A stretch of 5,521 bases of DNA, from assembly GCA_030667735.1 (NCBI GenBank), contig DAOUVG010000121.1, forward strand, positions 1-5,521, given 5' to 3'. Below are positions 635 through 5,521 of the stretch, piece after piece. A model generated the notes under the pieces. The model worked only from the letters and a program-made list of their open reading frames with translations, ran no database searches and was not told the DNA's origin. The position numbers were made by a program, and so were the translations under genes. Every line of letters begins with the position of its first letter. Within the stretch, counting starts at the first letter, position 1. The stretch comes from Dehalococcoidales bacterium (GTDB lineage Bacteria; Chloroflexota; Dehalococcoidia; Dehalococcoidales; Fen-1064).

Positions 635-1600
635 CTACCTGTAGCGGACCCGTGGGTCCAGAAAGGCATAGCTGAGGTCGGTCAGCAAAATGAGTACCAT
701 ACCGAATCCAGCCAGCAGAGTGTTTATTGCACTGACAAAAGGATAGTCTCTTCTATTGATGGCATCCAGGAAAAGGCGTCCCATACCAGGTAGACTGAAT
801 ATCTGTTCCATTATGACGGCACCGCCTATCATAATGGGTATCTGCCCGGATATCATGGTAATCACGGGAATCATGGCGTTCCTCATGGCGTGGCGAATGA
901 CGACTATGCGTTCTTTCAGCCCCTTTGCCCAGGCAGTCCGCACGTAGTCCTGACGCAGTACTTCAAGCATTGTGGTGCGCAACATCCTCATTGTCGTTGC
1001 CGACATCGACGTACCCATGAGTATTGCCGGAATGAGGAACTGTTCGAGGTTGGACATGGGGTCGTCGCCAAAAGGAATGTAACGCACTGGTGGTGACCAT
1101 CCCCACCATATGGATGGGAAGACCATAATCATAGTAGCCAACCAGAAGGCAGGCGTCGCCAGGTTAACAATGGCAAAAGTCCTTCCCACTACATCGCCCA
1201 TGGTGTCTTGACGTATCGCGGAATAGAGACCTATCGGGATGGCGATTATCTGTGAGATTAGAAATGAGAGAAGACCAAGCTCAAAGGTTATCGGTAGCCT
1301 GGCGATTATCTCGGGGAGTACGGGACGCTTTAACCATAGGGAATCTCCGAAATCACCACGCAGGAAAATACCCTTCATCCATGTCAGATATTGCTCATGC
1401 CACGGCATGTCCATTCCGAGCATTGCCTCGACTGCCGCGATGTCCATCTGCCCACCGGTCGATTCCCTTGACCCCATCTCGATAGCCATCATCTCCACCG
1501 CGCTGCCGGGAATGAGGCGTATGGTGAGGAATACCACTATGGTTACCAATAAAAGAGTGGGTATCATGAAAGCAATTCTTCGGATTATGTAGTTGCGCAT
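635..1600 (-). CDS. dppB: Peptide/nickel-type ABC transporter permease, DppB/OppB family
   Basis: This 321-residue inner-membrane protein would form half of the transmembrane channel of a peptide, nickel or opine ABC importer, moving substrate handed over by a periplasmic or lipid-anchored binding protein. It starts MRNYIIRRIAFMIPTLLLVT, the usual DppB opening. About six membrane segments are visible near residues 10-30, 101-127, 140-165, 186-208, 243-266 and 290-312. The cytoplasmic EAA-type loop that docks on the ATPase is at about 221-242 (RTAWAKGL, then RHAMRNA). IFSLPGMGRLF (267-277) and the C-terminal LDPRVRY are family signatures, and the length is normal. A GGAG six bases before the ATG supports the start. 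Unusually, it stands alone: the expected DppC partner should follow below 635 but does not, and no ATPase or binding protein is present. Substrate cannot be read from sequence. Confidence 0.93.
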   Translation of the reverse strand: MRNYIIRRIAFMIPTLLLVTIVVFLTIRLIPGSAVEMMAIEMGSRESTGGQMDIAAVEAMLGMDMPWHEQYLTWMKGIFLRGDFGDSLWLKRPVLPEIIARLPITFELGLLSFLISQIIAIPIGLYSAIRQDTMGDVVGRTFAIVNLATPAFWLATMIMVFPSIWWGWSPPVRYIPFGDDPMSNLEQFLIPAILMGTSMSATTMRMLRTTMLEVLRQDYVRTAWAKGLKERIVVIRHAMRNAMIPVITMISGQIPIMIGGAVIMEQIFSLPGMGRLFLDAINRRDYPFVSAINTLLAGFGMVLILLTDLSYAFLDPRVRYR

Positions 1601-1624: not shown

Positions 1625-1910
1625 TGGAAGTCTCTGTCTTGCGGCGTTTGCCTCCGGTTGCCAGGCATGGCATAATACCGCACTAAACCAGACTGGAAAC
1701 AGGGAAATACCAGTGCTGACAGACCTGCTCATGCGTTCAATATAGTATAGTACCTCGCATCGCTTGTGGCACTCATTTAACGCAGGAAACATTGGTTTAT
1801 TCTACATCATAATGCAGGCATTTATCAATATCGCGGGAGGGTGACCCGGGCGTCCGTTCCAGAGCTATTCGCTGCCCATCCGAACAGGCAAGCGGCAGTC
1901 CCCGGTTACT

Positions 1911-1939
1911 TTGCAATAGTTGTCTCTTTGCCACATAAT
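1911..1939 (+). promoter_or_regulatory. Possible sigma70 promoter for the HAD phosphatase gene
   Basis: TTGCAA (1911-1916) and CATAAT (1934-1939) are separated by exactly 17 bases, with four of six and five of six consensus matches. Transcription would begin near 1946, upstream of the GTG at 2009 but downstream of the alternative GTG at 1841. This supports the shorter protein. Confidence 0.45.
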
Positions 1940-1997
1940 GTCCGTGGCTGCTGGTGCTTACTGCGTGACCTATGCGTACTTAAGAGGGTGCTGTTCC

Positions 1998-2001
1998 GGA
2001 G
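1998..2001 (+). promoter_or_regulatory. Ribosome binding site deciding the HAD gene start
   Basis: GGAG is placed seven bases before the GTG at 2009, an ideal distance. The alternative GTG at 1841 has its GGGAGG (1835-1840) directly abutting the start codon, too close to work normally. Confidence 0.6.
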
Positions 2002-2008
2002 ATGGAAA

Positions 2009-2857
2009 GTGATAAACCTTCCCACATTTAATCGTATTCCCGGTGCGATTGCCGTTGACCTTGACGGGACCCTGCTAAACAGCCGGGCACAGCTATCCGA
2101 GCGAAACCGCATGGCTATAAAAGGGTGCGTAGCTCGTGGTATTCCCGTCGTTATTGCCACCTCTCGACCCATCCGGACGCTTCGCCGCCTGGTCGGTGAT
2201 GACCTGACAAACTTCTGCTCTCTGGTAGTTATGAATGGAACCGCTGCTCTGGCAGCACCTCCACTTTCCGGTGCGTTCCGGGAGGTGCTCCCGAAAGGGG
2301 TGGCCCGGGGCATTGTGGACCTGCTCGCGGGCATGGGACCGGAAGTGCGAGTGACGGTGGAAATCGAAGGCTGGGAGTTCGGTGCCAACTGGGCAGCCGA
2401 CGCAGAAACGCTCTGGCAGTTCAATGCGGCAACACCGGATATGGTCATGTCCGTAGACGAGGCTCTGACGAGAAACCCGTCCAGGATTGCCACCAGTCGT
2501 GGTGGGAGCGATGTCTCTGACCTGGCTGCGGAGGTCTCACGGCGATATGGAGATATTGTATCAGTGGTGCCGGCTAACGGGATGACGTTTCTCAATATCC
2601 TGAGTATTCGGGCATCAAAGTCCGGCGCTCTGCAACATCTCCTCCTGTCGAGGGAAATCGCAATGGATGATGTACTTGCCTTTGGCGATGATATTCCGGA
2701 TATTGATTTGCTGGCCTCATGTGGTACTGCGGTATCCATGGCTAATGCCGTTCCTGAGGTACTATCCCTTTGCAGATATTCCACTACCAGTAATGATGAC
2801 GACGGTGTGGCTGTGGTACTGGAACGAGTGCTGGCAATAAGCGGGCAGAAGCAATAA
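2009..2857 (+). CDS. Cof-type HAD-superfamily phosphatase (HAD-IIB)
   Basis: From the GTG at 2009 this is a 282-residue cytoplasmic phosphatase of the Cof/YidA group, which dephosphorylates small sugar phosphates and cofactor intermediates using an Asp nucleophile and Mg. Motif I is DLDGT (D17 nucleophile, D19 acid/base). N76-G77 is the family NG. Motif II is ATSRP (residues 50-54, Ser52), where relatives usually have TGR. Motif III Lys is K204 in RASKSGAL. Motif IV is GDDIPD (226-231), where Pro replaces the common Asn of GDxxND. The C-terminus follows the family pattern (VSMANAVPEVL, then SNDDDGVA). The C2-type cap lies between about 80 and 195. The frame is open back to a GTG at 1841, but those extra 56 residues are Cys/Arg-rich and not family-like. 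It appears monocistronic, ending in tandem TAA stops. The exact substrate is unknown. Confidence 0.88.
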   Translation: MINLPTFNRIPGAIAVDLDGTLLNSRAQLSERNRMAIKGCVARGIPVVIATSRPIRTLRRLVGDDLTNFCSLVVMNGTAALAAPPLSGAFREVLPKGVARGIVDLLAGMGPEVRVTVEIEGWEFGANWAADAETLWQFNAATPDMVMSVDEALTRNPSRIATSRGGSDVSDLAAEVSRRYGDIVSVVPANGMTFLNILSIRASKSGALQHLLLSREIAMDDVLAFGDDIPDIDLLASCGTAVSMANAVPEVLSLCRYSTTSNDDDGVAVVLERVLAISGQKQ

Positions 2858-2874: not shown

Positions 2875-3036
2875 CTTTATGAATACCCTTCGGGTATTCT
2901 GTTTGACCTCGATGATACGCTTGCAACCTGCGGCGCTCCGGAGGAGGCCTGGCTGGCGGTATGCCGTGAGTCCCCGTCTCAGGTGAACATCGGGGTGCAG
3001 CGGATGCTTGTCGGCTATCGTAGCAGCCTGCTATAA
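2875..3036 (+). pseudogene. Remnant of a second HAD-superfamily hydrolase
   Basis: The plus-strand frame reads through YPSGILFDLDDTLATC and EEAWLAVCRES, then stops at TAA 3034-3036. GILFDLDDTL is an unmistakable HAD motif I (DxDxT), and the following acidic/aromatic helix resembles the cap start of subfamily IA phosphatases. The frame opens at about 2800, but no ATG, GTG or TTG codon precedes the motif, and everything beyond about 35 residues after it is missing (motifs II-IV absent). It is therefore a decayed N-terminal piece. It differs from the intact HAD gene upstream (DLDDT versus DLDGT), so it is not a simple duplicate of that gene. The dehalogenase promoter overlaps its end. Confidence 0.7.
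2881..2899 (+). terminator. Possible terminator hairpin after the HAD phosphatase gene
   Basis: GAATACCC and GGGTATTC form a perfect 8-bp stem with a TTC loop, 23 bases after the stop codon. The tail (TGTTTGACC) is only weakly U-rich. The stem also lies in the HAD remnant, so part of it may be former coding sequence. Confidence 0.4.
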
Positions 3037-3037
3037 T
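3008..3037 (+). promoter_or_regulatory. Sigma70-like promoter of the dehalogenase operon
   Basis: TTGTCG (3008-3013, four of six matches) and a perfect TATAAT (3032-3037) are 18 bases apart. Transcription would start near 3044, giving a leader of about 50 bases before the first dehalogenase gene. The -10 box overlaps the stop codon of the HAD remnant. Confidence 0.5.
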
Positions 3038-3093: not shown

Positions 3094-4029
3094 GTGCGTA
3101 TGACCCGAAAACTGCTTGAAAGACCTGACTGGCTCAGAGCAATCTTTCCCTGGGAGCAGCATGCGATTACCGTGAACGGAAGGACCATGGCCTATGTGGA
3201 CGAGGGTGACCACGAAGCCCGGCCGGTCCTGCTCCTCCATGGAAATCCCGCCTGGGGCTTACTCTACCGTTATTTCATCCCGCCGCTGACCGAGGCCGGG
3301 TACCGGGTTATCGTGCCGGATTGGATTGGGGCGGGCTACTCGGACAAACCGCGGGTAGACAGCGCTCTCACGATGCCTCACCATATCGCCGACCTGGTAT
3401 CTCTCATGGACCAGCTGGGACTGCGGGGATTCGTCGTCGTGGGACAGGACTGGGGAGGCCCTCAGGGTGTCGGAGCCGCACTGCAACGTCGGGAACGGCT
3501 GGATGCAATGGTGCTGATGAATACCTGGCTGTTCACCGGCAATGTCGGCCGCTTCCATTCTTCGTCACGTCCCTGGACAACATGGCACGCGCCACTGATA
3601 GGCCAGTTCTTTATGAAGCGGCACAAGATACTGTCCCACGCCGGGCCATCACTCGTATCGCGGAGAGGTATGAGTGAGACTGAAGCCCGTGCCTATCACC
3701 ACATCTACGATGAGGCGGACTCGGACCACGTGGTCCTGACATGGCCGCGCACTATTCCGATGCGGGAAGGCGACCGTGGCTGGGAGCATATGCTCGCCAT
3801 CGAACGACGGTTACCGGAACTGGCACAGGTACCAACCCTCCTTATCTGGGCACCGGAGGACAATGTCTTTCCAATAGAGTACGCAAACCGACTGAAGGAG
3901 CTGCTGCCACATGCCGAAGGCCCGATAACGTTTGACAATGCGGCGCACTTCCTTCAGGATGACCGCGGCCCGGATATCGCCCGGAACATAGTCGAGTTCC
4001 TGGACAGGACGGTGGGGAGGTCATTATGA
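3094..4029 (+). CDS. Haloalkane dehalogenase-like alpha/beta hydrolase (subfamily III pattern)
   Basis: This 311-residue protein (309 if the ATG at 3100 is used) is a cytoplasmic alpha/beta hydrolase most like haloalkane dehalogenases, which cleave carbon-halogen bonds with water to give an alcohol and halide. HGNPAW (49-54) supplies the oxyanion region and the halide-binding Asn (N51). GQDWGG (117-122) holds the nucleophile D119 followed by halide-binding W120. WAPEDNVFP (252-260) gives a likely acid D256 after strand 7, and NAAHFLQDD (282-290) gives the catalytic H285. Asp-His-Asp with Asn-Trp is the subfamily III combination. The cap spans about 145-230, with W161 and W164 as possible extra halide ligands. 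GQDWGG rather than GHDWGG argues against an epoxide hydrolase, though that class and other C-X hydrolases remain possible. It is first in a two-gene operon, and its stop overlaps the next start (ATGA). Confidence 0.8.
   Translation: MRMTRKLLERPDWLRAIFPWEQHAITVNGRTMAYVDEGDHEARPVLLLHGNPAWGLLYRYFIPPLTEAGYRVIVPDWIGAGYSDKPRVDSALTMPHHIADLVSLMDQLGLRGFVVVGQDWGGPQGVGAALQRRERLDAMVLMNTWLFTGNVGRFHSSSRPWTTWHAPLIGQFFMKRHKILSHAGPSLVSRRGMSETEARAYHHIYDEADSDHVVLTWPRTIPMREGDRGWEHMLAIERRLPELAQVPTLLIWAPEDNVFPIEYANRLKELLPHAEGPITFDNAAHFLQDDRGPDIARNIVEFLDRTVGRSL
4015..4029 (+). promoter_or_regulatory. Shine-Dalgarno and ATGA translational coupling site
   Basis: GGGAGG (4015-4020) lies five bases before the second dehalogenase ATG (4026), inside the last codons of the first gene. 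ATGA (4026-4029) combines the start of one gene with the stop of the other, which normally couples their translation and fixes the start of the second gene, including its unusual extension. Confidence 0.8.
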
Positions 4030-5339
4030 AGTTCATTACGCCATCCGCTGAACAGTTGTCCTATCTCCGTGCCGACCCGTTACTGGTGGAGCAGGAGCTT
4101 GATGCCCGCCCGGAAGTTGCACAAGCACTGGAGAGAGTGACCGGTATCCGCGCGGGCAGGGTCTACTGGTGCTCGGAGCACGACCACCTCTATGCCCTGG
4201 AGTTGGGGGACCTCGGGAGGGGTTGGCCCTCGATAGCTACCGTCTTTGGTTTCTGGGACCGCTACGAGCCGCGTCCGCCGGAACACGAGATTGATTGTGA
4301 CCTGCTTGACTTCGGGGCGTGGGTGGCGGAAGTCACCGGGGGTATGGACCCTGCCGATATCAGGCTGGTGGCAGGGTTCGCTCAGCAGCAGACAGACCGG
4401 GTGCAATTGACCTGGCCCGACGGTTCGGTGCTGCGTACGCCGGAGGAGCGCTTTGCCAATCTGCCGGGTTATCCCTATGCGCCGCGCTACGTGGAGATGG
4501 AAGGGCTTAGAATGGCCTATGTGGAGGAAGGCTCCGGCGACCCGATACTGATGCTTCACGGTGAGCCGACCTGGGGGTATTTGTACCGACACATGATACC
4601 GGTTCTATCCGGGGCAAACCGTGTGATAGTGCCTGACCAGATAGGGTTTGGACGGTCCGATAAACCGGTTGCGGATAACGCATATAGCTACAGGGCATAC
4701 GTGCGCTGGATGCGGAAGTTCATCCTGGAACTGGACCTCAAACGAATAACGCTGGTCTGCCAGGACTGGGGAGGTCTGATTGGCCTGCGTGTTGTTTCTC
4801 AGATGCCCGAACGTTTCGCCCGGATTGTCCCGATGAACACCGGTATCCCCGATGGGGGCAGACCTGGTGGGACGTCCGCTGCGGAGACCGGAGGAATGGG
4901 AGGGGCCTTTATGACCTGGCGAAAACTTTCACAGCGACTGTCAGAGTTCGACCTGTCGGCAATGATGAAGCAGGCTGTTACCAACCGCGAATTGACCGAA
5001 GCCGAAGCAGCCGCCTACGGGGCACCTTTCCCTTCGGTGGAGTATCAGACAGCGGCTCTCCTCTGGCCTCGCCATGTGCCGATACGCCCGGACCATCCAG
5101 GGGCCTATGACAATCGTGTTGCCATCGAGGTACTGAGGACGCTTGAGCTACCGGTGCTCCTGCCCTGGGCGGAGGGAGACGCCATCACCAGGGCAGGAGA
5201 GAGTATGTTCCGAACTATTTTCCGCAACTGCGCTCCCCCGCTGCCCATCAGGAACGCAGGACACTTCATCCAGGAGGATGCCGGAGAAGAAGTCGCCGGG
5301 AATATCCGCAGGTGGATTCTGGAGACGCCGATACCATAG
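4026..5339 (+). CDS. Haloalkane dehalogenase (subfamily I, DhlA-like) with novel N-terminal extension
   Basis: The 437-residue product has a complete DhlA-type haloalkane dehalogenase at about 136-437, beginning with the family's own N-terminal pattern RTPEERFANLPGYPYAPRY (137-155). Key residues visible are HGEPTW (178-183), CQDWGG (245-250; nucleophile D247, halide-binding W248), cap tryptophan W298 in FMTWRK (second halide ligand by comparison with W175 of DhlA), TEAEAAAYGAPFP (324-336), acid D385 in EGDAIT, and H413 in AGHFIQED. Asp-His-Asp with Trp-Trp is the subfamily I set, so activity is plausible. Residues 1-135 are extra: usual family length is about 300. That region is unrecognised, mixed alpha/beta in character, with C49, H52 and H54 close together, and no signal peptide or membrane segment. 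A GGGAGG five bases before the ATG and the ATGA overlap support this start. An internal GTG at 4428 lacks a ribosome site. Confidence 0.9.
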   Translation: MKFITPSAEQLSYLRADPLLVEQELDARPEVAQALERVTGIRAGRVYWCSEHDHLYALELGDLGRGWPSIATVFGFWDRYEPRPPEHEIDCDLLDFGAWVAEVTGGMDPADIRLVAGFAQQQTDRVQLTWPDGSVLRTPEERFANLPGYPYAPRYVEMEGLRMAYVEEGSGDPILMLHGEPTWGYLYRHMIPVLSGANRVIVPDQIGFGRSDKPVADNAYSYRAYVRWMRKFILELDLKRITLVCQDWGGLIGLRVVSQMPERFARIVPMNTGIPDGGRPGGTSAAETGGMGGAFMTWRKLSQRLSEFDLSAMMKQAVTNRELTEAEAAAYGAPFPSVEYQTAALLWPRHVPIRPDHPGAYDNRVAIEVLRTLELPVLLPWAEGDAITRAGESMFRTIFRNCAPPLPIRNAGHFIQEDAGEEVAGNIRRWILETPIP

Positions 5340-5359
5340 ATAGAGAATATAATAAACTA

Positions 5360-5379
5360 CCCCACAGCTTGCTGTGGGG
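5360..5379. terminator. Hairpin after the dehalogenase operon
   Basis: CCCCACAG and CTGTGGGG pair perfectly around CTTG, 20 bases after the operon stop. The plus-strand tail (CATTAAATTAATA) is AT-rich but not a clean T run. On the minus strand the tail is TAGTTTATTATATT, more terminator-like, so the stem may also stop transcripts coming from the right. A palindromic repeat unit is the alternative reading. Confidence 0.5.
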
Positions 5380-5521
5380 CATTAAATTAATACATACTTC
5401 GTTTGCCCTGCATTTTTACCCTGCTTTCAAATGGAGCTATTACTCTGACAGGGTGATGAAAAAGGGGAGTTCAGAAGGGGCGAAACCCCTCTTCTGAGGG
5501 GCGCCCCGTCTAGGCCGCACG
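5380..5521. other. Non-coding right edge with GC-rich stem-loops
   Basis: No gene is supported here. A compound stem-loop spans 5471-5497: TCAGA and TCTGA form the outer arms with a two-base CT bulge, and AGGGG pairs with CCCCT around a CGAAA loop. It is immediately followed by a perfect 10-bp palindrome, GGGGCGCCCC (5498-5507). No T run follows before the edge, so a dispersed palindromic repeat or structured RNA end is as likely as a terminator. Confidence 0.45.
5437..5451 (+). repeat. 15-bp motif CTATTACTCTGACAG, right copy
   Basis: This is an exact match, in inverted orientation, to 182-196 some 5.2 kb away. A 15-base exact match is not expected often by chance in a window this size, but two copies alone do not define an element. 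Confidence 0.4.

Follow-up and report, generated by a model that had tools for sequence, protein, structure and literature searches.

Haloalkane dehalogenases (HLDs), HaloTag among them, are treated in research and in engineering as single chains that need no partner. What role might a further domain play when it precedes such an enzyme in the same open reading frame (ORF)? This question is raised by the window analysed here, a stretch of 5,521 nucleotides that constitutes contig C73 of the 1.82-Mb draft genome of a Dehalococcoidales bacterium. A preliminary description had noticed an unrecognised N-terminal domain fused to a dehalogenase of the DhlA type, and by implication had linked its function to that dehalogenase. 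Here we show that its constant partner across genomes is another gene, encoding the hydrolase directly upstream.

Organisation of the locus and its two enzymes

Two ORFs on the plus strand, at 3094-4029 (311 aa) and 4026-5339 (437 aa), overlap by four bases. The first encodes an alpha/beta hydrolase, here called UPH for upstream hydrolase. The second encodes the fusion, which starts with a conserved domain of 124 residues (NDOM; 4026-4397, plus strand), delimited through protein homologues, their alignment, fold prediction, and searches of Pfam and NCBIfam. After a linker of approximately 12 residues (4398-4433, plus strand), bounded by the end of free-standing members around residue 124 and an RTP-type motif from residue 137, the HLD domain follows (4434-5339, plus strand). 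The ATG of the fusion lies at 4026, with GGGGAGG just upstream, and overlaps the UPH stop codon as ATGA (4026-4029, plus strand), an arrangement that is the same in most relatives. The UPH ORF itself opens at a GTG (3094); since many of its homologues are 309 aa long, the ATG at 3100 is the likelier start. A sigma-70-like promoter match upstream of UPH (3008-3037, plus strand) is a consensus match only, in a region that counts four of them where 1.0 is expected, and a 10-pair stem-loop just past the operon (5358-5381) is terminator-like on the minus strand according to a scan that found two such structures against 1.3 expected. Further upstream, the window carries a gene for a HAD-family hydrolase (Hydrolase_3; 1841-2857, plus strand) ahead of UPH, and a divergent gene for an ABC transporter permease of the BPD_transp_1 family (635-1600, minus strand). 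A protein similar to this HAD-family hydrolase is likewise encoded before UPH in locus L002 (3730-4827).

The dehalogenase part of the fusion is complete, as the preliminary description had stated: residues 134-432 match NF002043 (PRK00870, haloalkane dehalogenase) with 332.5 bits at a curated cut-off of 265, the RTP-type motif RTPEERFANLPGYP indeed begins at residue 137, and a complete pentad is predicted (D247, W248, W298, D385 and H413), its positions being assigned by motif and from what we take to be the corresponding residues of DhlA. In 61 aligned fusions, these columns hold D in 61, W in 59, W in 61, D in 60 and H in 60 rows. On such sequence features, the fused HLD belongs to subfamily I and is predicted to have dehalogenase activity. 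Its best matches in the PDB are 4mj3, 6f9o, 5esr, 2xt0, 7avr and 1b6g. The alignment to these solved HLD-I chains begins at residue 135 or 136 of the query and at around residue 3-5 of the best chains, which therefore have no N-terminal domain of this kind, in line with the earlier remark that classical subfamily I enzymes lack one.

UPH is likewise a member of the dehalogenase family, but the same profile gives it 159.8 bits, which is below the cut-off of 265. Its nearest solved chains are 8ooh (E 2.4e-33) and 8ckp (1.2e-32), followed by 6f9o at 7.3e-31; we take the first two to be entries of DhmeA from Haloferax mediterranei, and 8ooh to represent subfamily III. UPH is termed HLD-III-like here, on a ranking of solved chains in which 6f9o follows closely. 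Its predicted pentad (N51, D119, W120, D256 and H285) is present in full in 143 of 144 aligned UPH rows, the exception, P0262, having Ala at position 119. Pentad residues are conserved in both UPH and the fused HLD, and both enzymes are predicted to be catalytic.

UPH is the constant partner of NDOM

Scanning the contigs of 84,980 genomes with an NDOM profile yielded 25 loci besides the window, with MAG labels that include Chloroflexota, Acidobacteria/Terriglobia, Deltaproteobacteria, Betaproteobacteria, Nitrospiraceae, Binatus, Planctomycetaceae and a Bathyarchaeote, among others. NDOM is rare, being present in one of 301 Chloroflexota genomes, the window's own. When UPH was searched for at E<=1e-40 in these 25 genomes and that of the window, one orthologue was found in 26 out of 26, those of the 25 being 66-94% identical to the UPH of the window. 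The UPH gene of G304 (L005) is broken, its match being limited to residues 111-307. UPH is split over two frames at L005:2959-3799 and at L041/L042, through decay or, these being draft genomes, sequencing error. Four NDOM genomes gave an additional UPH match of 37-39% identity, which in at least G302, G310 and G322 is the fused HLD beside UPH.

Searches were also started from UPH. At E<=1e-60, it was found in one of 251 Chloroflexota genomes (again the window's own), one of 247 from the phylum of G305 (the seed), and five of 247 from the phylum of G318 as well as five of 247 from that of G309, many genomes being shared between these two sets. At E<=1e-50, it was found in four of 14 genomes of the window's family, seven of 148 from the class of G318 and four of 200 from the family of G307. 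G815 was not counted as new, having coordinates identical to those of G301, which leaves six new genomes (G811, G816, G824, G888, G889 and G897), and in all six NDOM is the next gene downstream. Among the candidates scored in these UPH-first searches, a partial set in some genomes, no UPH orthologue was seen without NDOM in the same genome. Protein homologues amount to 906 for NDOM (585 with the length of the fusion and 321 with that of the free domain, fragments included) versus 899 for UPH at E<=1e-100, counted at thresholds that are different and arbitrary. Genomes that pair NDOM with UPH come from several phyla.

Altogether, 32 loci were compared (the window, L002-L026, L030, L035, L037, L039, L040 and L041). 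UPH is adjacent upstream on the same strand in 29 of these and shares one ORF with NDOM in another (L025), together 30 of 32. At L007, UPH lies 1.9 kb upstream of NDOM with a long minus-strand ORF in between, and L013 begins at a contig end, the UPH of that genome ending at the end of another contig. The overlap between UPH and NDOM is exactly four bases in 18 of 23 measured loci and in the window (19 of 24), the remaining five spacings being +1, -14, -26, +386 and +1900. In 20 loci, NDOM forms a fusion with an HLD; another 11 have no HLD, NDOM being a free-standing gene in ten of them and part of the UPH ORF in L025, and L022 is truncated by the end of its contig. The single ORF of L025 (3888-5252) joins UPH and NDOM through a linker of approximately 30 residues; the coverage of this contig is low (1.44), so the fusion could be an assembly error.

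The constant partner of NDOM is the UPH gene and not the fused HLD, and the functional link to its own dehalogenase that had been implied before finds no support. Because the UPH gene adjoins NDOM in nearly all 32 loci, even where no HLD is fused, we consider it probable, though far from certain, that UPH has NDOM as its dedicated small subunit, and that the fusion with HLD-I would tether a second enzyme to the UPH complex. An AlphaFold2 model of the L025 ORF (P0241) reached a pTM of 0.59 and a mean pLDDT of 70.1. Nearly all of each row was placed correctly in the underlying alignment (A11); with the UPH part poorly modelled and six UPH rows in the alignment besides P0241, the model is uninformative on contact between UPH and NDOM, either way.

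NDOM is an unnamed domain with a predicted fold of its own

The preliminary description had put the domain at about 135 residues. A conserved coding region does lie ahead of the HLD, of which the domain itself takes up residues 1-124 and the linker the rest. Residues 1-136 alone have no NCBIfam match, and in Pfam only a sub-threshold one to UnbV_ASPIC (E 0.085). Among 87 aligned family members, none matches Pfam at E<=0.01, and six match NCBIfam, with PRK00870 only, as these rows probably extend into the dehalogenase (C-terminal overhang). As had been noticed, NDOM is an unnamed domain, for which neither Pfam nor NCBIfam has a family. In titles and abstract openings of open-licence literature, no description of NDOM or of its pairing with UPH was found among the matches listed; both enzyme families are known.

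Predicted alone, NDOM reaches a pLDDT of 95 and a pTM of 0.87. It is predicted to fold independently, an outcome named earlier as support for a separate module, into a compact alpha+beta domain with a beta-alpha-beta-beta-beta-alpha-alpha core that is preceded by a short N-terminal helix. Free-standing homologues and repeated fusion in relatives, both suggested earlier as things to look for, exist as well (321 free-size proteins and ten free-standing genes in the 32 loci; 585 fused-size proteins and 20 fused loci). By sequence, NDOM has no solved-enzyme match, and its predicted fold has no clear relative among the solved structures compared, though it may belong to a fold family outside that set. 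A viral structure library returned nothing significant. Mobile or viral cargo was considered as well and rejected: 22 pattern matches in viral contigs held no NDOM relatives, and no NDOM was found in plasmids.

The wider operon is not conserved. Setting aside UPH, NDOM, HLD and antisense ORFs, the commonest extra gene cluster is of the SDR family, in five of 26 loci (L002, L008, L015, L017 and L018), and other neighbouring genes recur in at most three of 26. Neighbours were annotated with Pfam for 30 chosen ORFs and with NCBIfam for eight, and those that look catabolic are the SDRs, located beside or near the cassette in their five loci, a CoA-transferase of family III, a thiolase and an acyl-CoA ligase. 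In L002, the closest relative, SDR and CoA-transferase family III genes lie downstream of the fusion (7351-9536), hinting at acyl-CoA catabolism. An OleB-type pathway was considered because a thiolase, an acyl-CoA ligase or an SDR gene lies nearby on its own in some loci, and was dropped because the ORFs scanned never combine the three.

Co-occurrence is also compatible with two proteins of one pathway that do not touch. NDOM could then be a separate enzyme or ligand-binding protein that shares a pathway with UPH but does not bind to it, their genes moving as a cassette. Its invariant polar residues (R15, D17, E22, E24, D26, R42, S50 and R83) could make up an active or ligand-binding site, and the catabolic look of some neighbours would suit such a role. 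However, no solved enzyme is matched by sequence, nor clearly by fold, and a 4-base overlap together with one-to-one pairing is more typical of subunits. On balance, we regard a separate, non-binding protein as rather unlikely.

The fused dehalogenase is dispensable

An HLD was sought in eight genomes of the 11 HLD-less loci. At E<=1e-50, five of them (G303, G313, G319, G324 and G325) showed none, and in G318, G320 and G811 the sole match is 41-43% identical and located on another contig; none of the eight thus carries a close relative of the fused enzyme. L017 contains a full-length fused ORF (6001-7230) with Leu, Gln and Gly in place of W248, D385 and H413, the latter two columns being placed by MAFFT alone since BLASTP stops at residue 370. 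In the same locus, NDOM (65% identity across residues 1-116) and the UPH pentad are both preserved, and the HLD half is a candidate pseudoenzyme beside an intact NDOM.

As such, the fused HLD is dispensable across loci; where present, it is well preserved. In the comparison of the window with L002, a single pair, dN/dS is 0.147 for NDOM (residues 1-124) and 0.088 for HLD, and HLD is therefore not under weaker constraint in this pair. Across 12 fused loci, mean pairwise identity is 0.73 for UPH, 0.67 for NDOM and 0.64 for HLD. Their pairwise distances correlate with r 0.77 for NDOM-UPH, 0.74 for NDOM-HLD and 0.75 for UPH-HLD, and since the second value is close to the first, these mirror-tree data do not single out UPH.

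A tree of 186 NDOM sequences (117 labelled fused and 69 free, L025 among the latter) shows 17 changes between the two labels, at least four of them on starred branches, where shuffled labels give a mean of 56. This tree, built on 124 columns, is weakly resolved, with 99 of 183 inner branches open, and does not give the order of fusion and loss. Left out of it were L022, which is cut, sequences listed as fused of fewer than 400 aa, those listed as free outside 119-130 aa, and near-copies of the same label (>=93%).

These data bear on the idea that NDOM assists the fused HLD-I within the same chain, as an accessory domain serving as a lid or in solubility or oligomerisation, with the adjacency of UPH reflecting nothing but operon structure. 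Most loci (20 of 32) do carry the fusion, and its linker is short; moreover, the distances of NDOM correlate with those of HLD (r 0.74), and dN/dS is lowest for HLD (0.088). Yet NDOM occurs without HLD in 11 of 32 loci, no close HLD was found in the eight such genomes searched, L017 retains NDOM beside a decayed HLD, and the fused and free labels switch at least four times on the tree, which together make an accessory domain decidedly improbable.

Conserved residues and the start of the domain

C49, H52 and H54, read earlier as a compact Cys/His cluster, are present in the window, but a metal-binding or sensor module built on them is very hard to sustain: across 87 rows, C49 is Arg in 81, and H52 and H54 are His in 72 and 79, so that the cluster as such is not conserved and the idea is largely refuted. 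From the aromatic stretch at residues 66-77, W77 is invariant and W67 is not conserved, and in the acidic segment near residues 85-95, E86 is conserved in 82 rows, D90 in 79 and D92 in 86.

That the extension is an annotation artefact with its true start near residue 136, as the alignment of solved HLD-I chains only from query residue 135 or 136 could suggest, has practically no chance and is refuted by comparative data: the region is present in 906 protein matches, 79 of 87 rows begin with Met at one shared position, dN/dS is 0.147, stand-alone NDOM genes exist and the fold prediction is confident. The early translation start proposed before, on the ATG at 4026 with its ATGA overlap and GGGGAGG, is borne out by these homologues. 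In L003, the conserved start position (1391) reads ATA instead of ATG, and the 4-base overlap with the UPH stop is kept.

Discussion

In this study, we describe an unnamed domain with about 900 protein matches that accompanies one dehalogenase-like hydrolase wherever the genome context is readable. If NDOM is a small subunit of UPH, the two proteins would bind each other, as their co-occurrence, the gene overlap and the one UPH-NDOM ORF suggest, and NDOM may shape the active site or the assembly of UPH and be needed for either its activity or its assembly. Through NDOM, the fused HLD would be brought to the UPH complex, where both active sites could act together, perhaps serving successive steps of a catabolic route. 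Among the roles floated in the preliminary description, partner binding and a formerly separate gene fit best, with the direction, fusion or loss, left undecided by the tree; a site formed by the Cys/His residues does not.

A more specific version is that UPH and NDOM form a two-component enzyme of the dehalogenase family with an obligatory small subunit, and that the fusion with HLD-I results in a complex of three domains and two active sites, in which product is passed between dehalogenase-type sites. We offer this as a tentative possibility. Should NDOM be a required subunit, UPH expressed alone could appear inactive, and screens based on the cloning of single genes would miss its activity.

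How do these proteins compare to known systems? The fused enzyme resembles HLD-I of the DhlA type in that residues 134-432 score above the cut-off, in its N-terminal RTPxxRF motif and in its complete predicted pentad. It differs in the 124-residue domain ahead of the enzyme, which the best solved chains do not have.

For UPH, a precedent for action in a complex exists in XcOleB, which is described as belonging to subfamily III and functioning as part of large multi-enzyme assemblies (PMC10503415). Unlike OleB, a beta-lactone decarboxylase from a multi-enzyme olefin assembly, UPH-NDOM is not flanked by an oleA/oleC/oleD-like set in the loci scanned, its neighbours being variable. OleB partners are not known to be NDOM-like.

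Closest to UPH stands DhmeA, which is assigned to subfamily III and has a pentad of the type Asn-Trp-Asp-Asp-His (PMC10503415); the pentad of UPH is of the matching type, with Asn and Trp for halide binding. For subfamily III, passages of that paper describe homo-oligomers and name no small partner (PMC10503415). What sets UPH of these loci apart from DhmeA is that it forms one tight family, 66-94% identical to the protein of the window, and comes with a small partner gene.
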